Virus record (IMG/VR): IMGVR_UViG_3300037485_000262
Location: 1 to 22,240 of that record
Reading direction: 5' to 3' (one strand)
DNA from: a virus
Length of the DNA stretch: 22,240 bases
Part shown: positions 1,877-16,332 of the stretch, piece after piece
Layout: every line of letters starts with the position of its first letter
Position numbering within the stretch: the stretch's first letter is position 1
Notes under the pieces: generated by a model
The model's input: only the letters and a program-made list of their open reading frames with translations
The model's database searches: none
What the model was told of the DNA's origin: nothing
Program-made: the position numbers and the translations under genes

Positions 1877-2112
1877 TAAAGAATTTTATTTGGAGTTTAC
1901 TCGCTGAAGATGGGAAACTTAGTAGCAAACGCTTCGCAGGTATCCTATCAACCTTGTTCCTTTGCATCACATTGCTTTGGAATAGTTTTAGCGAGGAACA
2001 TATCGCCCCATCAACAATACTTGTTGAGTGCGTGACTGCGGTTGCAATAGGTGCTTTGGGTATCTCTGCGGTGCAAACTATCTTTAAGAAAAAAGATGAA
2101 GAACCTAAGTAA
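1873..2112 (+). CDS. Putative holin (two membrane spans)
   Basis: A 79-aa protein with an N-terminal amphipathic start (MIKNFIWSLLAEDGKLSSKRF), a first membrane span around residues 22-37 (FAGILSTLFLCITLLW) and a second around 50-70 (ILVECVTAVAIGALGISAVQTIF), ending in the charged tail KKKDEEPK. The two-span layout, size and tail match class II-type phage holins, which form holes in the inner membrane at the time of lysis. It starts inside the stop of the previous gene (ATGA) and its end overlaps the PAS-protein start at 2096, so the three are probably co-translated. Confidence 0.62.
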   Translation: MIKNFIWSLLAEDGKLSSKRFAGILSTLFLCITLLWNSFSEEHIAPSTILVECVTAVAIGALGISAVQTIFKKKDEEPK

Positions 2113-2839
2113 AGAAGAACTCCTAAGTAGGATGGAGGCAATTAATCGTAGCAATGCGATTATTTACTTTGACCTCAACGGGTTCATACTTGGGGTAAAT
2201 GCCATCTTTTTAAAAGCAATGGGATTCGGAGAAGATGAACACGATAAGTTAATCGGTAAGCATCATAGCATATTTGTCAGTTATGAGTATTCTAAGTCTG
2301 ATGAGTATGTAAAGTTTTGGGAAACGCTAAGAAGTGGTAAGTTCTTTGAAGGGGAGTTTGAAAGAAAGAAGATAGATGGTTCACCTATCTACTTACAAGC
2401 GACATACAATCCTATCTTTGATGAAGCAAGTGTTATAACAAAGGTGATGAAGATAGCGACTGATATCAGTGAAACTGTTGTTAGCAAAAACAGAATAGAT
2501 GAACTATCCAAAACCTTGCAAAAGGAATTGGATAACACAAACAAACTAAGGGAGGCAATAGAGATAGAGAAAAACGCTGCGTTGGAGGACTTGGATGCAA
2601 CCCTAAAGAAAAGTCAAAACGAATTAATCAAAACGATTGTTAAGTGTGCTTTAGCGGTTATTATAAGCGTTGGATTTATCACAACAATTATGTACTCCTT
2701 CGCAATACTATCCAATAAGGACACGCAGATAATCGGGTCAACATGGTCAAATATGTTCAGCGTACTTCTCACAAATGCCTTCTCAATAGTTGGTACAATT
2801 ATGGGTATTAAGTATGCAACACAAGATGAAAAAAAATAA
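2096..2839 (+). CDS. PAS-domain protein with coiled coil and two C-terminal membrane spans
   Basis: A 247-aa protein. Residues about 16-127 form a PAS sensor domain of the kind seen in methyl-accepting chemotaxis and Aer/BdlA-type proteins: AIIYFDLNGFILGVN, then GKHHSIFV, FWETLRSGKFFEGEFER, IYLQATYNPIFD and VMKIATDISE. A coiled coil follows (about 130-178), then two hydrophobic spans (about 181-204 and 217-239) and the charged tail ATQDEKK. No kinase, cyclase or MCP signalling domain is present. The start is ATG 2096, overlapping the holin-like gene by 17 bases; a longer reading from 2051 is unlikely. It sits between holin-like and spanin genes. Family knowledge says PAS domains bind ligands or redox cofactors. 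A link between sensing and lysis is my inference; cofactor and ligand are unknown. Confidence 0.8.
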   Translation: MKNLSKEELLSRMEAINRSNAIIYFDLNGFILGVNAIFLKAMGFGEDEHDKLIGKHHSIFVSYEYSKSDEYVKFWETLRSGKFFEGEFERKKIDGSPIYLQATYNPIFDEASVITKVMKIATDISETVVSKNRIDELSKTLQKELDNTNKLREAIEIEKNAALEDLDATLKKSQNELIKTIVKCALAVIISVGFITTIMYSFAILSNKDTQIIGSTWSNMFSVLLTNAFSIVGTIMGIKYATQDEKK

Positions 2840-3290
2840 TATGAGATACTTACTTTTATTGATGCTATTTATCGGATGCAACCCAGTTAAGCAAGTTTTG
2901 CGTGACCAAGAGAAACTTGAAGAAGTCGCAAAAGTTGTGGTTAAGGGTGGATGGTGTGCGAATGATACTACCTTCATAACCAAGTCTGATACTCTTGTTG
3001 AGATGGACACAATTATCCGTATAGATACGCAAACAGATACGCATATCTTTAATGATACAACCTACATTACCAAGTGGAAAACAAGGGATATTACTAAGAC
3101 CTTAACCATTCACGATACCATTAAGTCCTTCATTGTTGACAATGCCCGTGTAAGGTTATTACAGACCGATTCAGCACGTTTAACGTATGAGTTAAACGAA
3201 TGGCAAGGCAAGGCAAAAAAAAGGCAATTGTGGATATTCCTATTGATTGGAATGATTGGTGCATACTTTTATATAAAATCTAAAATATGA
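2826..3290 (+). CDS. Putative unimolecular spanin (u-spanin) lipoprotein
   Basis: This 154-aa protein has the two end signals that define a u-spanin. The N-terminus is a lipoprotein signal (MKKNNM basic start, then LLLLMLFIG and Cys18 as the lipidated residue). The C-terminus is one membrane span (about 136-150, IFLLIGMIGAYFYI) followed by KSKI. Between them is a polar region full of regularly spaced Asp-Thr pairs, likely beta-rich, then a short helical part. Such a protein would tie the outer membrane to the inner membrane and fuse them in the last step of lysis of a Gram-negative host. I chose ATG 2826 because it adds the positive N-terminus; ATG 2841 is possible. It overlaps the PAS gene and, by 4 bases, the endolysin gene. 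Confidence 0.72.
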   Translation: MKKNNMRYLLLLMLFIGCNPVKQVLRDQEKLEEVAKVVVKGGWCANDTTFITKSDTLVEMDTIIRIDTQTDTHIFNDTTYITKWKTRDITKTLTIHDTIKSFIVDNARVRLLQTDSARLTYELNEWQGKAKKRQLWIFLLIGMIGAYFYIKSKI

Positions 3291-3754
3291 AACTTAGCGA
3301 ACATCTTGACTTGTCAGAAGTAACCCGTAGCGAATCAGCAAAGAGAAAAGGAATAAGCAATATGCCAACAGAGGCACACATTGCTAACTTTAAGTTATTA
3401 GCAGAAAAGATATTTGAACCAATAAGGAAACACTTTAGATGCCCTATTATTATCTCATCGGGATATAGAAGCAAGGAACTAAATGCTGCTATCGGTGGTT
3501 CATTAACCTCCCAACATTGTCAAGGCGAAGCAATTGATATTGATATGGATGGTACACCAAATGGAGTTACCAATAGGATGGTGTTTGATTACATCAAGGA
3601 CAATCTAAACTTTGACCAACTTATCTATGAGTTCGGAGATGCTAATAATCCTGACTGGGTTCACGTTTCTTATGAATCTACTGGTAAGCAAAGGAAGCAG
3701 ATATTAAGGGCAACAAGGTCCGGAGGGAAAACTTTGTACAGTAATTACCAATGA
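3287..3754 (+). CDS. Endolysin, M15-family zinc peptidase
   Basis: A 155-aa protein of the peptidase M15 (VanY/endolysin-like) fold, which cuts peptide bonds in the peptidoglycan stem or cross-link. Visible motifs are ISSGYRS (56-62), the zinc-binding SQHCQGEAIDID with H77 and D84, and DWVHVSY with the third ligand H126. The chain is full length for phage M15_3-type enzymes, and there is no signal peptide, so export would depend on a holin. The start overlaps the spanin stop (ATGA at 3287-3290), completing a holin/spanin/endolysin cassette. Confidence 0.9.
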   Translation: MKLSEHLDLSEVTRSESAKRKGISNMPTEAHIANFKLLAEKIFEPIRKHFRCPIIISSGYRSKELNAAIGGSLTSQHCQGEAIDIDMDGTPNGVTNRMVFDYIKDNLNFDQLIYEFGDANNPDWVHVSYESTGKQRKQILRATRSGGKTLYSNYQ

Positions 3755-4722
3755 ACAAGGTAGATATAGCAAGGGAATATCGTGAGAAATATGGGTGGGA
3801 AATGCCTACTCTAAAACTGGCAAGGATTATTTTTAAAGATAATCCTTTGTCGTTTACTAACGTAGACCATGCGAGGAGTTTTTTGAGGTCAATAGAAAAC
3901 AAAATGGGCAAGAAAAATAATCACATAATTACAAAAGAAATGCCTACAAGACCCAAGAACCCATATAATTTACCTGAATCAGATGAGGCAATATACCAAC
4001 CTTATGACCTAAAAGCGAAGCGTTTGTTGGTTCTTTCCGACATCCACATTCCTTATCATAACATAGAGGCATTGACTTGTGCTTTTGATTTTGCGAAACA
4101 AGAAAAGCCTGATGCGATACTTCTCAATGGAGATACCCTTGACTTCTTTGGATTGAGTAGGTTTATGAAAGACCCCAAGAAAAGGTCAATAGCAAGTGAG
4201 TTGGCAATCTTCAAGGACTTTATGGAGATTCTTAAAAAGACTTTTAATGCTAAAATCTATTACAAGATGGGAAACCATTGTGAAAGGTATGAGCATTTTC
4301 TTTGGATGAAGGCACATGAACTGGTCGGGGTTGAGGAATTTGAGATTGAGAATATACTTAAAGCAAGGGCAGAAGGTATTGAGATTATCAAGGACAAGCG
4401 GATAATGAAAGCAGGGGACTTGAATATTATACATGGTCACGAATTTGGCGGTTCGGTATTTAGTCCGGTAAACATTGCCAGGGGGTTATTCCTACGGGGT
4501 AAGGTATCTGCTATGCAAGGACACAATCACCAAACCTCAGAACATTCTGAAAGCAATATGAATGGGGAACTAACTACCACCTGGTCCTTAGGTTGCTTGT
4601 GCGAACTGCATCCCGCATACCTTCCCATTAACAAATGGAATCACGGATTCGCTTTGGTAGATGTAGATGGTCAGAACTTTGAAGTAAGGAACAAAAGAAT
4701 CCATAAGGGTAAAATCCTTTAA
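3751..4722 (+). CDS. Calcineurin-like metallophosphoesterase
   Basis: A 323-aa protein with all five metal-site motifs of the calcineurin-like phosphoesterase superfamily in order: SDIHIPYH (D97, H99), NGDTLD (D128), GNHCER (N175, H176), HGHEF (H228, H230) and GHNHQ (H258, H260). These bind two metal ions and cleave phosphoester bonds in nucleic acids, nucleotides or phosphoproteins. The first 90 residues carry no motif I recognise; the start of this part looks like a small helical DNA-binding region. It overlaps the endolysin gene by ATGA. The substrate is not evident. Its position at the end of the lysis operon suggests co-expression late in infection. Confidence 0.88.
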   Translation: MNKVDIAREYREKYGWEMPTLKLARIIFKDNPLSFTNVDHARSFLRSIENKMGKKNNHIITKEMPTRPKNPYNLPESDEAIYQPYDLKAKRLLVLSDIHIPYHNIEALTCAFDFAKQEKPDAILLNGDTLDFFGLSRFMKDPKKRSIASELAIFKDFMEILKKTFNAKIYYKMGNHCERYEHFLWMKAHELVGVEEFEIENILKARAEGIEIIKDKRIMKAGDLNIIHGHEFGGSVFSPVNIARGLFLRGKVSAMQGHNHQTSEHSESNMNGELTTTWSLGCLCELHPAYLPINKWNHGFALVDVDGQNFEVRNKRIHKGKIL

Positions 4723-4970: not shown

Positions 4971-4994
4971 TTTTTAAAGTTTTAATGTGATTTG

Positions 4995-5029
4995 AACCCC
5001 TGGAGTTTCTACTTTGGGGGTTTTTGTTT
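4995..5029 (+). terminator. Strong intrinsic terminator ending the late operon
   Basis: Bases 4995-5006 (AACCCCTGGAGT) pair continuously with 5011-5022 (ACTTTGGGGGTT) around the loop TTCT. This gives a 12-bp stem with three G-U pairs, and the T-rich tract TTTTTGTTT runs on from its 3' arm. It lies 25 bases after the acidic-protein gene and 44 bases before the early promoter, separating the two transcription units. Confidence 0.85.
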
Positions 5030-11450: not shown

Positions 11451-11747
11451 ATGACACAAGAAGATGAAAAGTTTATTCAAGACAATATCTACAACTTTGA
11501 ATGTGTCAAGGTTGGGTTCATGAAGAACCTACCCTTGCATATCTTGGTAGGATATGAGCAGATTTATCGTAGATACTTAGATGGTGGGTTTATCCTTACC
11601 TCCTGGTGTGCTAACTGTGTGGCAGATATGATGAAGCGGTTGAGTAATTACTGGGATGCATACCAAGCAAGTAAACTCATAGAGGTTGAGCAACCTATCC
11701 AAGAAGCACCGAAAAAGAAAGGTAGACCATTTAAAAACAAACAATGA
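11451..11747 (+). CDS. Unknown protein with AT-hook-like basic tail
   Basis: A 98-aa protein. The body is helical with a cysteine-containing segment, TSWCANCVADMMKRLSNYW. The end, PKKKGRPFKNK, contains a GRP core flanked by basic residues, as in AT-hook minor-groove binders. A diverged leader motif, TCAAATCAGA, lies at 11435-11444. It overlaps the first glycosyltransferase by ATGA, so it is the first gene of that coupled group. Function unknown. Confidence 0.66.
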   Translation: MTQEDEKFIQDNIYNFECVKVGFMKNLPLHILVGYEQIYRRYLDGGFILTSWCANCVADMMKRLSNYWDAYQASKLIEVEQPIQEAPKKKGRPFKNKQ

Positions 11748-12748
11748 GAATAATAGCAGTCGGGCAGCGTAACTCAGGGGTATCTTTCCATAGGTTATTC
11801 AATCCCATTATCTATCTTCCAAAGGACTTCGCAATGATGACCGATACCATCACCGAGGAAGAACTTGCCAAAGGATATGACATAATGTTTATCAATCGGT
11901 ATGTAGCAGGGGTTGAGGTAGATGAATTGGTAAGACTGCGTGAGAAATACGGGTTTAAATTAGTGGTTGATATTGATGACTATTGGCATCTTGACCCGTG
12001 GCATATCTTGTACGGAAAATATCCAACTCAAAAGGTCATAGACCATATCAAGGTAGCAGACTTGGTAATATGCTCAAACAATGATTTGGCAGTTTATGTA
12101 GATGAACTTAATCCGAATTGGATAGTAATACCAAACGCATTGCCTTATGGTGAGGACCAGTTTACGGATGTAAAGACTGAATCAGATAGGGTTAGGTTTG
12201 TTTATGCAGGGTCAGTAACACATGAGAAGGATATTGCAATCCTAAAAAACCCAATGAAAAGGGTGGCAGGGGATTCCTTCACGAAAGATAACTCAAGGTT
12301 TATCCTTTGCGGTTATAGTCAAGACAAGCAGGTTGCAAACACATGGGGCAGAATGATTAACGATTACCTTTGCGGATTCAATGTTGATGGTTACATACGG
12401 GAAGCGTTACCAGTGGATGAGTACATGAACTTTTACAATGAAGCAGATGCTTGTTTGATTCCTTTGGTACAAAGCAAGTTTAACTCAATGAAGTCTAACC
12501 TCAAAGTCTTGGAGGCAGCAACAAAGAATGCAGTAGTAATAGCATCAAATGTAAAACCTTATTCTGAATGCCCACACATTATTCCGGTAGGTTATCAAGC
12601 AGGTTGGTTCGGAAATATTAAAAAAGTTTGCAAAGATGCTATATATAGACAAGAGATGGGGATTGCTAATGGCGAATATTGTAGAGAACATTTTAATCTC
12701 GTCAAGGTAAATAAGTTAAGAAGTCAAGTTTTTGAATCAATAATATGA
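11744..12748 (+). CDS. GT-B fold glycosyltransferase
   Basis: A 334-aa protein with the two-domain layout of GT-B (GT4-like) enzymes. The N-terminal domain begins MRIIAVGQRNSGVSFHRLF and contains LVVDIDDYWHLDP (about 73-85) and ADLVICSNNDLA. A linker, WIVIPNALPYG, leads to the nucleotide-sugar domain with RFVYAGSVTHEKDI (about 151-164), ADACLIPLVQSKFNSMKSNLK and LEAATKNAVVIAS. The 'SNLKVLEA' segment fits the donor-binding E of retaining GT-B enzymes. It would move a sugar from a nucleotide donor. The acceptor is unknown. Confidence 0.82.
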   Translation: MRIIAVGQRNSGVSFHRLFNPIIYLPKDFAMMTDTITEEELAKGYDIMFINRYVAGVEVDELVRLREKYGFKLVVDIDDYWHLDPWHILYGKYPTQKVIDHIKVADLVICSNNDLAVYVDELNPNWIVIPNALPYGEDQFTDVKTESDRVRFVYAGSVTHEKDIAILKNPMKRVAGDSFTKDNSRFILCGYSQDKQVANTWGRMINDYLCGFNVDGYIREALPVDEYMNFYNEADACLIPLVQSKFNSMKSNLKVLEAATKNAVVIASNVKPYSECPHIIPVGYQAGWFGNIKKVCKDAIYRQEMGIANGEYCREHFNLVKVNKLRSQVFESII

Positions 12749-12987
12749 AAGCAGAGTTACACTTTAACCTTGATGATTATGATGATAAGATAGAGCATCT
12801 TAGATGCGTTCAAGCATCAGACTTGTGCAGTGCCATTCATGAATTTATTTACAATACAAAGAAGGGTTTGAAGTATGAAGCAGAGGTAAAGAATCTTGAT
12901 GCATACGATGCAATAAATACAGTCTATGAAAAGTTTTGGGATATACTTAAAGAGCATAACTTAGATATAGATAAACTCATACAATGA
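12745..12987 (+). CDS. Small helical acidic protein of unknown function
   Basis: An 80-aa protein coupled by ATGA to the glycosyltransferases on its 5' side and to a zinc-ribbon peptide on its 3' side. It is acidic and helical (LDDYDDKIEHLRCVQA and AINTVYEKFWDILKEHN). I see no domain. Co-translation suggests a role tied to the cassette, or a structural regulator with a job of its own. Confidence 0.65.
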   Translation: MKAELHFNLDDYDDKIEHLRCVQASDLCSAIHEFIYNTKKGLKYEAEVKNLDAYDAINTVYEKFWDILKEHNLDIDKLIQ

Positions 12988-13103
12988 AATACCAACCTAA
13001 ATGGGTAACGTGTAAAAACTGCAACAAGAAGTACACCATTACCTTAATCAAGTTAAAGGCAAAAGAAAGCAAGTGCGGTCATTGTGGAACTATAAATAAA
13101 TAA
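12984..13103 (+). CDS. 39-aa zinc-ribbon peptide
   Basis: MKYQPKWVTCKNCNKKYTI provides C10 and C13, and SKCGHCGTINK provides C31 and C34, giving a complete four-cysteine zinc ribbon and little else. The ATG overlaps the previous stop by 4 bases and the stop is one base before the next start, so it is embedded in the glycosyltransferase group. Zinc ribbons of this size often serve as protein or RNA adaptors. Partner unknown. Confidence 0.75.
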   Translation: MKYQPKWVTCKNCNKKYTITLIKLKAKESKCGHCGTINK

Positions 13104-13104
13104 A

Positions 13105-13887
13105 ATGAAAAGAGTATTAATCGCAATGGCGGTCCATGATACAGAGGAGAACAAGAGGACCGAACTAACAAAGAAAGTCCTTGATAGTATATATATTACA
13201 GACATTTTTGAGAACCATGACTTTTGGGTGGTAGATAATAACTCTTGCCAAGCAACAAAGGACATCCTTAAAATATATGCAGATGATGGTTACATAAACC
13301 TAATCACCAATGAGCAGAACATAGGAACTGCTGAGGCGGTTAACCTTGCTTGGAAGTACAGAGTACCTGGGCAACATTGCATAAAGATGGATAACGATGT
13401 TATTATCTATTCTGATTCTTGGATTACTGAAATGGTTGAGGCAATTGAAAGGGATAAGAGAATAGGCATAGTTGGACTAAAAAGAAAAGATTGTTGGGAA
13501 GAACCGAATCACGCTTTACCTGATTGGAGAAGCGAATTAATTATGCTTCCTCATATGGCAGGGCAAAGGTGGATGATAGTTGAGAAGTGCCATCACATTA
13601 TCGGTACTTGTCAGATGTACTCCTCAGCATTATTAGACAAAATAGGGTATCTTTACCAACCTTCCCTTTATGGTTATGATGATGTCCTTGCATCACATAG
13701 GTCAACAGTTGCAGGGATGTGGAATGTGTTCTTGCCTCATATTGAGATTGACCACATTGACCCGGGCGAAACCGAGTACCAATCTTGGAAGGAGAAACAT
13801 AGTAGCGAAGTAACCCAACAAGTCATCAAGATAACCCATGAGTATTATCACGGGGTAAGACCAATATATTATAATCCGTACCAATGA
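13105..13887 (+). CDS. GT-A fold (family 2-like) glycosyltransferase
   Basis: A 260-aa protein with the GT2 features. An N-terminal nucleotide-binding strand (RVLIAMAVHD) leads to WVVDNNSCQATKDIL (D44-N45-N46-S47) and NEQNIGTAEAVNLAW. The metal-binding D-x-D follows in KMDNDVIIYS (D96, D98). Later, CQMYSSALLDKIGYLYQPS and GYDDVLASHRS fit the acceptor/catalytic half. It would transfer a sugar from a nucleotide donor with inversion. Its 3' end overlaps the third transferase by ATGA. Confidence 0.85.
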   Translation: MKRVLIAMAVHDTEENKRTELTKKVLDSIYITDIFENHDFWVVDNNSCQATKDILKIYADDGYINLITNEQNIGTAEAVNLAWKYRVPGQHCIKMDNDVIIYSDSWITEMVEAIERDKRIGIVGLKRKDCWEEPNHALPDWRSELIMLPHMAGQRWMIVEKCHHIIGTCQMYSSALLDKIGYLYQPSLYGYDDVLASHRSTVAGMWNVFLPHIEIDHIDPGETEYQSWKEKHSSEVTQQVIKITHEYYHGVRPIYYNPYQ

Positions 13888-14507
13888 AAGTAATAGTTTC
13901 TTTAGATAATCCGAATCACCCAGGGTGGTTGAAGTTAGAGGAATCCTTGAAACGGCACGGATGGGAATATGTAACCATTGTCAAAGAGTGGAAAGGGTTT
14001 GGAACTAAGATAATCGGATTGTACGAATACCTTGTTAATGCCTATGATGAGGACTTTATATATCTTGATGCATATGATAACTACTGCATTGCACCAATGG
14101 ATGAGTTTGCATATAAATATAAGGCAGGAAGTGGATTGATTATAAGTGCAGAGAAAGGATGTTACCCTGATTCGCATAATCGTGGCAAGTTTCCAACAGT
14201 ACCTCACGAATGGAAGTATCTAAACTCGGGGCAGATATATGGTAGAAGGGAGGACTTTATGAAGTTGTTTGAACAGAACCCGGTCCGCTTTGAAGATGAT
14301 GACCAAAGGTGGTACACAGACAGATTCCTTGAGAGAAGGTCAAGCATCAGTCTTGATTACTGCAACATCTTTCAATCGGTTGCATTTGAAGTGGAAGGTG
14401 ACTTTACTTTAACGTACAATAGATTGTACAACAATAAAACCCATACCTTCCCTATGTTTATTCACGGCAACGGGAAAACGGATATGACTAAATTTTATCA
14501 ACTATGA
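13884..14507 (+). CDS. PLOD/procollagen-type glycosyltransferase
   Basis: A 207-aa protein matching the glycosyltransferase domain known from animal lysyl hydroxylase (PLOD/LH3) and found in many viruses and bacteria. The ordered motifs are FIYLDAYDNYC (D62-A-Y-D65, metal site), LIISAEKGCYPD, KYLNSGQIYG, the acidic DDDQRWYTDRFL, LDYCNIFQSV and FIHGNGK at the end. It transfers a sugar to an unidentified acceptor. In the animal family the acceptor is a hydroxylysine glycoside, but no hydroxylase gene is visible here. Coupled by ATGA on both sides. Confidence 0.82.
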   Translation: MKVIVSLDNPNHPGWLKLEESLKRHGWEYVTIVKEWKGFGTKIIGLYEYLVNAYDEDFIYLDAYDNYCIAPMDEFAYKYKAGSGLIISAEKGCYPDSHNRGKFPTVPHEWKYLNSGQIYGRREDFMKLFEQNPVRFEDDDQRWYTDRFLERRSSISLDYCNIFQSVAFEVEGDFTLTYNRLYNNKTHTFPMFIHGNGKTDMTKFYQL

Positions 14508-15175
14508 TGGATGAACTGGTTAAGGATTACACCGACAAGGTGAATGCCGACAAAGAACTCAAAGCATATCGGGATTGGATAGAAGCAAACGCATTCGGAT
14601 TCGGGGAAAGATGCTTTCTTTGGATGTGGAATGAGATAGTAAAGAAGATGCCTGATGAATTTACCTTTATGGAGATAGGTGTCTTTAGAGGGCAGATACT
14701 TGCAATAGTAAGCCTACTTGCAGAAAGGCACGGCAAGAAGGTGAGGCGAATAGGCATCACACCTCTTGACACATCCGATGGGCATTGGGAGAGTGACTAC
14801 GAAGCAGACATAATAAGACTGCATGATGTGTTCAATATTAAGGATGACTATGAGTTAATCCGCTTGGATTCAACCAATCCAAATGCAGTTAAGTTGGCAT
14901 CACAGAACCCACCCGATGTACTATACATAGATGGAGGACATACTTACGAAGTAGTCAAGTCAGACCTTACCAACTATCTTCCAATCCTCAAAGTAGGTGG
15001 CACATTGGTAATTGATGATTGCAATAATGCCATCCCAATGCCTTGGGGTTACTTCCAAGGTATTCAATCGGTATCTATTGCGGTTGATGAAGTCCTCCCA
15101 AGAGAGGGAAGCACAGAATATTGGAAGCATGAGTTGAACTTGGTTCATAATAGAGTATTAACTAAACTTAAATAA
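14504..15175 (+). CDS. Class I SAM-dependent methyltransferase
   Basis: A 223-aa protein of the Methyltransf_24-like type. FMEIGVFRGQILAIV (about 55-69) is the SAM-binding loop, DVLYIDGGHTYEVVKSDL (about 138-155) the second core strand with the DGGH motif, and GGTLVIDDC (165-173) the third. Enzymes of this group often methylate sugars or small molecules. Lying directly after three glycosyltransferases with an ATGA overlap, it may cap the added glycan. That assignment is inferred from neighbourhood; it has no DNA-methyltransferase motif. Confidence 0.8.
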   Translation: MMDELVKDYTDKVNADKELKAYRDWIEANAFGFGERCFLWMWNEIVKKMPDEFTFMEIGVFRGQILAIVSLLAERHGKKVRRIGITPLDTSDGHWESDYEADIIRLHDVFNIKDDYELIRLDSTNPNAVKLASQNPPDVLYIDGGHTYEVVKSDLTNYLPILKVGGTLVIDDCNNAIPMPWGYFQGIQSVSIAVDEVLPREGSTEYWKHELNLVHNRVLTKLK

Positions 15176-16332
15176 TGAATCCTATTAAAGTTAAAATCAG
15201 CGAAGTAAAGTCTAACCCGAACAATCCAAGAATCATCAAGGATGATAAGTTCCAAAAGTTAGTCAAGTCAATCAAGGAGTTCCCTGAGATGCTCAACATT
15301 AGACCAATAGTGGTTAATGCTGATATGGTGGTCCTCGGTGGCAATATGCGACTAAAGGCTTGTAAGGAAGCAGGGATTAAAGAAGTAGCAATCATTAAAG
15401 CATCTGACTTAACCGATGAACAACAGAAGCAGTTTATCATTAAGGATAACGTAGGATTCGGTGAGTGGGATTGGGAGGACTTAGCGAACAACTGGGATGT
15501 TGAACAGTTAACAGATTGGGGGTTAGATATTCCCGACTTTAAACCTGAGGTCCTTGAAGCAGAAGAAGATGACTTTGCAGTACCCGATGGGGGAATAGAA
15601 ACCGATATCGTGCTTGGTGATTTATTTGAGATAGGAGAACATAGATTACTTTGTGGAGATTCAACGGATAGCGACCAAGTAGCAAAGTTGATGAATGGGC
15701 AGAAGGCAGAACTTGTATTTACAGACCCACCTTATGGGAATGGTTCAAGCGGAAAGTATGGTAGGGGACAACTTGGGGTAAGAACTATTTTGAATGATGA
15801 TACGTTTGATTGCGTGAACGATTTTTTTAATTTAAGGATTTGCGATGCATACGTTTTCTTTTTGCAATGGAGAACCTTTAAGGAAGCAATACAAACTCTT
15901 GAAAATAACGAACTGCAACTTAAAACGATTGCAGTTTGGGATAAGAAAAACGCAGGTTTAAATGGTGCAGGAGGAATGGCAGAACAATGGGAGGCAATTA
16001 TAGTAGCAGGGAATATTAAATATTCAAGGTTTGGTGGTAATGTTTTTAACGTAAGCAGGGAACAAAAGAAAAGAATTGATAGTCCTCACCCACATCAAAA
16101 ACCTATTGAACTACTGAGCAATATTTTGGAATACTTCCAAGATTACAACTTGTTAGTTGACCCATTTAGCGGTTCGGGTTCAACAATGGTGGCAAGTCAT
16201 CAACTCAAACGTAAGTGCTATGGCATGGAATTAGACCCTAAATATTGCCAAGTCATAGTGGATAGGATGCTCAAACTTGACCCAAGTTTAGAGGTCAAGA
16301 GGAACGGGGTAACATATAACAAAACAAAGTAA
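15175..16332 (+). CDS. DNA methyltransferase with N-terminal ParB-like domain
   Basis: A 385-aa fusion. Residues about 1-90 form a ParB/sulfiredoxin-like domain (LVKSIKEFPEML, VNADMVVLGGNMRLKACKEAG). Then comes a beta-type N6-adenine/N4-cytosine methyltransferase: catalytic DPPY at 184-187, later HPHQKPIELL (305-314), then the SAM motif DPFSGSGSTMVA (329-340) and YGMELDPKYC. The order DPPY before FSGSG defines the beta group. No restriction partner is visible. It probably shields the phage DNA from host nucleases or marks it for packaging. The start joins the previous gene by TAATG. Confidence 0.9.
   Translation: MNPIKVKISEVKSNPNNPRIIKDDKFQKLVKSIKEFPEMLNIRPIVVNADMVVLGGNMRLKACKEAGIKEVAIIKASDLTDEQQKQFIIKDNVGFGEWDWEDLANNWDVEQLTDWGLDIPDFKPEVLEAEEDDFAVPDGGIETDIVLGDLFEIGEHRLLCGDSTDSDQVAKLMNGQKAELVFTDPPYGNGSSGKYGRGQLGVRTILNDDTFDCVNDFFNLRICDAYVFFLQWRTFKEAIQTLENNELQLKTIAVWDKKNAGLNGAGGMAEQWEAIIVAGNIKYSRFGGNVFNVSREQKKRIDSPHPHQKPIELLSNILEYFQDYNLLVDPFSGSGSTMVASHQLKRKCYGMELDPKYCQVIVDRMLKLDPSLEVKRNGVTYNKTK

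Follow-up and report, generated by a model that had tools for sequence, protein, structure and literature searches.

What role could a PAS sensor gene play among the lysis genes of a phage? The question is raised by the window, the whole stretch of DNA analysed here, which is a complete viral record of 22,240 bases and which, judging from its sequence style and a 50% match of its M15 endolysin to a Flavobacterium phage, appears to derive from a Bacteroidota phage. At 2096-2839 on the plus strand, a gene with an ATG start, recognised from the ORF call, Pfam PAS matches, homologs, and a structural model, encodes a 247-aa product in which a PAS domain is followed by a coiled coil and a transmembrane (TM) hairpin. 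We give about an even chance to the reading that this PAS protein is an accessory, signal-gated trigger or modulator of lysis in lytic phages.

The cassette, encoded entirely on the plus strand, begins with a small 43-aa protein (1594-1725) that is conserved in three related loci (L163, L164, and L175). It is followed by two holin-like proteins with two TM segments each, holA (1718-1876; 52 aa) and holB (1873-2112; 79 aa), whose matches to PHROG holins are weak (E 0.03 and 0.021, respectively). Next come the PAS gene, a u-spanin-like lipoprotein gene (2826 or 2841 to 3290) assigned from sequence and hydropathy (lipobox LFIGC and a C-terminal TM segment), the M15 endolysin gene (3287-3754; Pfam Peptidase_M15_3, 2.5e-19; PHROG endolysin, 1.2e-37), and a gene for a metallophosphoesterase (3751-4722; Pfam and PHROG), an enzyme that recurs beside these endolysins. 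Three of the joints, including that between holA and holB, are 4-bp overlaps. The original prediction described the PAS gene as overlapping a holin-like gene on one side and the u-spanin gene on the other; the overlap with holB is real (17 bp), whereas that with the spanin gene (14 bp) exists only if the spanin starts at 2826, and the start matching its homolog in L163 is 2841, right after the PAS gene stop. A terminator-like site lies downstream of the cassette at 4994-5023, of a kind that shuffled sequences yield about equally often. The metallophosphoesterase gene overlaps the endolysin gene, and enzymes of this type form two families that recur near these lysis genes, in clusters covering 11 and 14 loci. 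Elsewhere in the window, an HNH_3 endonuclease gene, possibly a homing endonuclease, lies at 773-1246 with a tail-like gene on one side and the lysis cassette on the other, glycosyltransferase genes and a methyltransferase gene occupy 11744-15175, and a fusion of ParB_N with an N6/N4 DNA methylase lies just ahead of the terminase (15175-16332).

The protein starts with a segment conserved among homologs (MKNLSKEELLSR), and its N-cap helix (residues 6-19; 2111-2152), helical in the model and likewise conserved, has an 'AI.RS' start that chemoreceptor PAS units share. The PAS domain (residues 20-124; 2153-2467), delimited by Pfam, homologs, and the model, contains the invariant residues H56, H57, W75, and R90; four Pfam PAS models exceed their gathering scores over residues of about 20-126, among them PAS_9 (1.4e-8), PAS (3.2e-8), and PAS_3 (8.6e-8). 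An AlphaFold model of moderate confidence (mean pLDDT 74, pTM 0.44) comprises an N-terminal helix, a PAS fold, a helix at 125-205, a five-residue turn, and a helix at 211-242, the first long helix running unbroken from the coiled coil into TM1. According to model and alignment, the coiled-coil linker (residues 125-176; 2468-2623) is the most variable part of the protein; TM1 (about residues 180-203; 2633-2704), placed by hydropathy and alignment, is also variable. An invariant block at residues 210-242 (TQIIGSTWSNMFSVLLTNAFSIVGTIMGIKYAT; 2723-2821) covers the loop, TM2, and the start of the tail. Hydropathy peaks at 181-199 and 220-238 mark the two candidate TM segments, and lysines before TM1 and within the tail suggest that both ends of the protein, PAS and tail, are cytoplasmic. 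No Pfam match to a kinase, cyclase, MCP, or HAMP part was found in the 247 residues, and the chain stops after TM2 and the tail, so that the predicted architecture of a PAS domain, a coiled coil, and two membrane spans lacking a kinase, cyclase, or MCP part is borne out by Pfam, the model, and hydropathy. Absence of a PAS fold from the structure prediction had been set in advance as a test, and the opposite was found: the fold, a five-stranded sheet with a helical face, is present in the model, with Foldseek matches to NifL, MmoS, Aer, and LOV domains. The holin-like look attributed to the C-terminus stands as far as the two TM segments are concerned, but it is not accompanied by a significant match to a holin or antiholin family, the best PHROG hit of the protein being the phrog_689 holin (E 0.048). 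This family was matched by one of 11 homolog C-termini, and phrog_1544, a family with no assigned function, by 10 of the 11 (best 3.6e-5), the C-terminal PHROG matches being weak.

What the PAS domain might sense can be approached through its relatives. Its closest cellular counterparts (41-52% identity) are PAS units of tandem-PAS proteins from Myxococcales, Methylobacterium, Vibrio, and actinobacteria; of four such proteins scanned, three carry an MCP part and one (Vibrio) a STAS domain. Among solved structures, the best matches are MmoS (6.5e-9), Aer, and NifL, all of them FAD redox sensors, along with LOV domains. These relatives agree with the assignment of the domain to the chemoreceptor/Aer/BdlA kind, and a tandem-PAS chemoreceptor is the probable source of the PAS part. 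In Aer, the residues in contact with FAD are H53, W70, N85, R115, and R57 (PMC9668731), and the PAS1 and PAS2 domains of BdlA are predicted to bind FAD (PMC8694187). A check for PAS and cofactor pockets yielded the Pfam PAS matches and a flavin pocket that is conserved in part: Aer H53 and W70 correspond to H57 and W75, both invariant in the phage family, and G29 is kept, whereas N85, R115, and R57 align with R90, A121, and V61. Chemoreceptor relatives also have arginine where Aer has N85. Flavin is therefore a plausible cofactor, as far as residue conservation can indicate. The LOV adduct cysteine (GxNCRFLQ) is absent from the window protein, which has GKHHSIF at this site. Two candidate phage relatives, MT836939 and Listeria phage LM 4-14-1, were rejected, as they resemble the PAS part only and belong to MCP-type proteins; these matches probably reflect bacterial sequence in the two records.

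Full-length homologs were detected in 184 candidate IMG/VR stretches, with identities of 71-97% among the best 80 of the 184, and a search with the C-terminus gave at least 582 matching stretches. Hundreds of uncultured phage contigs carry the gene, most of them, by our own reading of the collection, from freshwater. Together with a PAS-only query using a two-PAS homolog, from which 80 loci were kept, the pooled set comprised 135 distinct homologs in viral contigs, of which 58 have one PAS domain, 74 have two, and three are clipped by contig ends. About half of the homologs thus contain two PAS domains in tandem, and TM2 stays constant while PAS number differs. The two-PAS homologs (368-392 aa, with the same C-terminus) are those of L067-L071, L074, L075, L077-L081, and most of L252-L330.

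A cell-wall enzyme lies within 1.3 kb of the gene in 126 of the 135 distinct homologs, the opposite of a distribution mainly outside lysis cassettes, which had been named beforehand as a test of the lysis link. The enzymes belong to four unrelated families, namely M15 (59), GH19 (50), GH24 (22), and a phrog_3000 type (16), counts that overlap because some loci have two. Where at least 1.5 kb is available on both sides (n = 95), an enzyme is present in 89 cases and an enzyme or holB in 93; one of the two exceptions has a GH19 enzyme at 1.45 kb (L271), and the other a TM coiled-coil protein that weakly matches a PHROG holin and overlaps by 4 bp (L304). One further locus, L028, is without an endolysin only as its contig ends. 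Stop/start overlaps of the PAS gene with a holin or endolysin gene are frequent, and the gene occurs on either side of the endolysin or of holB, beside the spanin, or between two holin-like genes. Membership of the PAS gene in lysis cassettes is thus strongly supported. The fourth enzyme family has no Pfam catalytic domain and gives PHROG endolysin matches; its domain (GINIH...WSAGCQ), alone or with PG_binding_1 (L328:1897-2715, L063:3456-4001, and L285:1952-2497), fills the endolysin place in some cassettes and probably represents an enzyme of the cell-wall type that Pfam does not cover. In about 30 of 81 loci, basic peptides only 40-46 aa long, with YRGQG(R/K) at their ends (clusters c5 and c12), occur near the lysis genes, adjoining the PAS gene in, for example, L005, L045, and L047.

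Linkage of this kind could also carry other late membrane functions in a late operon, which weighs against a trigger. The PAS protein might be a late membrane protein with a job outside lysis, acting on a host membrane component (respiration or secretion) or in superinfection exclusion, and travelling with the lysis genes through late expression; the accessory nature of the gene and the extreme constraint on TM2, which fits an invariant host target, both agree with this. The gene is nevertheless linked, in many gene orders, with four families of lysis enzyme and not with late genes generally, and in a within-locus control on the first set, all M15, GH19, and GH24 genes in the roughly 4 kb surveyed were within 1.3 kb of the PAS gene (midpoints). 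We consider a role outside lysis unlikely, at something like one chance in five.

The strongest constraint on the protein falls on the membrane and not on the sensor. Residues 210-242, a block of 33 spanning the loop, TM2, and the start of the tail, show no difference in any of the 135 distinct proteins; an alignment of 57 one-PAS proteins gives mean amino-acid differences of 0.000 for TM2, 0.161 for the PAS domain, 0.279 for the coiled coil, and 0.224 for TM1. In the same 57 proteins, comparable four-fold sites within the TM2 block differ at 0.585 (58.5%), like those elsewhere, and codons vary freely, with synonymous sites near saturation. Since the codons are free and the protein is fixed, the invariance reflects constraint on the protein; recent DNA copying is ruled out by the synonymous divergence, and ascertainment bias by the set retrieved with PAS patterns only, which shows the same. 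TM2 contains no charges and has a polar S/T/N/G face (shuffle p 0.03). No relatives of the C-terminus were found in 84,980 prokaryote species genomes, searched with two TM2-region patterns, or in the phage collection. Such a helix may pack against itself in a defined assembly or meet a constant host partner, and the unchanged 33 residues offer a sharp experimental handle, which should lead either to a defined pore or to some universal membrane target of the host.

The main lysis-related rival to the trigger is an antiholin-like brake, whose TM hairpin would bind the phage's own holin and keep it from acting for as long as the PAS cue is unchanged, much as RI and RIII of T4 restrain holin T; the T4 proteins provide a precedent for signal-sensing antiholins (PMC11413866). 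As a brake on the neighbouring holin would favour, 103 of the 135 homologs have a holB-family gene no more than 1.5 kb away and 83 have one no more than 100 bp away, and codons of the two genes often overlap. These holB neighbours share a mean identity of only 40% among homolog loci, with values as low as 11%, and near some PAS genes no holB is recognisable. A helix that binds a holin should co-vary with it, so the constancy of TM2 beside a varying holB counts against the brake and makes tuning of TM2 to the phage's own holin unlikely. On balance, we put the brake at about one chance in six.

A comparison of related cassettes indicates that the PAS gene is an accessory element, gained by or lost from cassettes that otherwise look complete. 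Among 80 loci with a close relative of the window endolysin (77-94% identical), at least four carry the PAS gene, a lower bound in that some of these contigs end early. In L163, a syntenic cassette with 76-78% nucleotide identity to the window on both flanks (1273-1843 and 2841-4664), the PAS gene is absent and holB runs straight into the spanin gene; L171 is likewise a syntenic cassette without it. L164 has the PAS gene in another slot, between holA and holB, and L175 has in this same slot a 99-aa multi-TM protein, an exchange of membrane proteins that would also suit the brake. Multi-TM proteins of this kind, 99-105 aa long and ending in SYYFGTK, are encoded at L175:2551-2850 and at L307:3621-3938, in the latter case directly after the PAS gene. 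A relationship between them and the C-terminus of the PAS protein was considered and is unsupported (hhalign probability 5.8).

Because the gene is added to or lost from complete-looking cassettes, the PAS protein is probably not an essential holin. It could still be argued that it is the phage's holin itself, as a PAS-gated canonical holin or pinholin: it has two TM helices, a small-polar face, and a charge-free TM2, some loci offer no other recognisable holB, and the M15 endolysin, for want of an obvious signal sequence, has to rely on a holin. Most loci, however, have other holin-like proteins, and the syntenic cassettes of L163, L171, and L175 do without the PAS gene, leaving this identity improbable, at perhaps one chance in ten. 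A decoy of a host PAS receptor, the other option of the original prediction, here taken as one that jams host signalling, would fit the chemoreceptor-like PAS domain but is very improbable, given that homology to host receptors stops at the PAS end, the most constrained part is TM2 and not the PAS surface, a similar TM2 was not found in the prokaryote genomes searched with the two patterns, and the location in lysis cassettes would be left unexplained.

For the signal-gated trigger or modulator, the dimerisation, topology, cue, depolarisation, and lysis-time effect that we infer would combine as follows. Dimerisation of two or more copies via their PAS and coiled-coil parts would give an inner-membrane complex whose PAS domains and tails face the cytoplasm. 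An internal cue, either redox or energy state via flavin or a small ligand, would be read by the PAS domain and would travel down the continuous helix to the TM hairpin. In the preferred last step, the invariant TM2 would form a small assembly, and this assembly, acting by itself or upon a host component that does not vary, would lower the membrane potential; the loss of membrane energy would fire whichever holin the phage carries. Holins are triggered early by falling membrane energy, and energy poisons serve as a diagnostic test (PMC13056207). A depolarising hairpin could fire any holin, which would explain both the dispensability of the protein and its occurrence, as one conserved form, alongside holins and endolysins of unrelated kinds. 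The boldest form of this reading is a widespread plug-in module that passes from phage to phage and lets the host metabolic state set the lysis time: a flavin- or ligand-binding PAS domain would act through the invariant TM helix, either depolarising the membrane or seizing some universal component of the host, and would thereby fire any holin-endolysin set. We regard this as possible but doubtful, at somewhat under one chance in three.

Models of lysis timing usually treat it as a clock whose setting depends on the allele and concentration of the holin, and few inputs to it are known, namely superinfection in T4 and, at the transcriptional level, an autoinducer in VP882. If the trigger reading is true, a metabolic or redox sensor within the cassette makes lysis time follow the physiology of the host in freshwater phages that are abundant. 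The placing of such a protein among lysis genes suggests that some phages gauge the condition of the cell when deciding on lysis. As the original prediction had supposed, no phage lysis protein of this architecture was found in the literature searched, nor was any description of a PAS protein in a lysis cassette found in this full-text literature, which leaves most subscription papers outside its scope. The sequences themselves are not new to databases: a structure search turned up UniProt entries from uncultured phages, either unnamed or labelled 'PAS domain', for which no description of place or role was found. By its sequence features, the protein is not a chemoreceptor (no HAMP or MCP part), a LOV protein, or a member of a known holin family.

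Among known systems, the aerotaxis/energy receptor Aer of Escherichia coli has a comparable layout, with a cytoplasmic PAS domain, a helical linker, and a membrane hairpin. The likeness extends to PAS sequence and fold (8dik) and to the shared histidine and tryptophan described above; the phage protein differs in lacking HAMP and MCP parts, in ending after TM2 and a short tail, and in the three replaced flavin contacts. Chemoreceptors of the BdlA/McpS type (Pseudomonas) have tandem PAS domains, as do the two-PAS phage homologs, and tandem-PAS cellular relatives share with the phage homologs the motifs GKHHxxF, FW..L..G.F..GE, and ATYNP, a likeness to BdlA that rests on these relatives, BdlA itself being outside the alignment. 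In place of the MCP part, the phage protein has a coiled coil and a TM hairpin, and it sits in lysis cassettes. T4 RI and RIII are also small proteins that sense a signal and alter lysis time via the holin (PMC11413866), but they are antiholins without a PAS domain or TM hairpin that bind holin T, and their signal is superinfection. VqmA of vibriophage VP882 is a phage PAS receptor linking a cell signal (DPO) to lysis (PMC8284805); unlike the protein studied here, it is a DNA-binding transcription factor with no membrane part, acting in the lysis-lysogeny decision. Cultured Bacteroidota phages provide gp090 of Cellulophaga phage phi18:3 (L249:39102-39620) and gp108 of phi19:1 (L251:4202-4924), which combine a predicted PAS-like fold with a coiled coil and lie beside or about 1.5 kb upstream of an endolysin gene. 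They have no Pfam PAS match, do not share TM2, fall into PHROG families of their own, and show the reverse order (hydrophobic N-terminus, coiled coil, PAS-like fold); their occurrence hints at a broader association of PAS folds with lysis among Bacteroidota phages.
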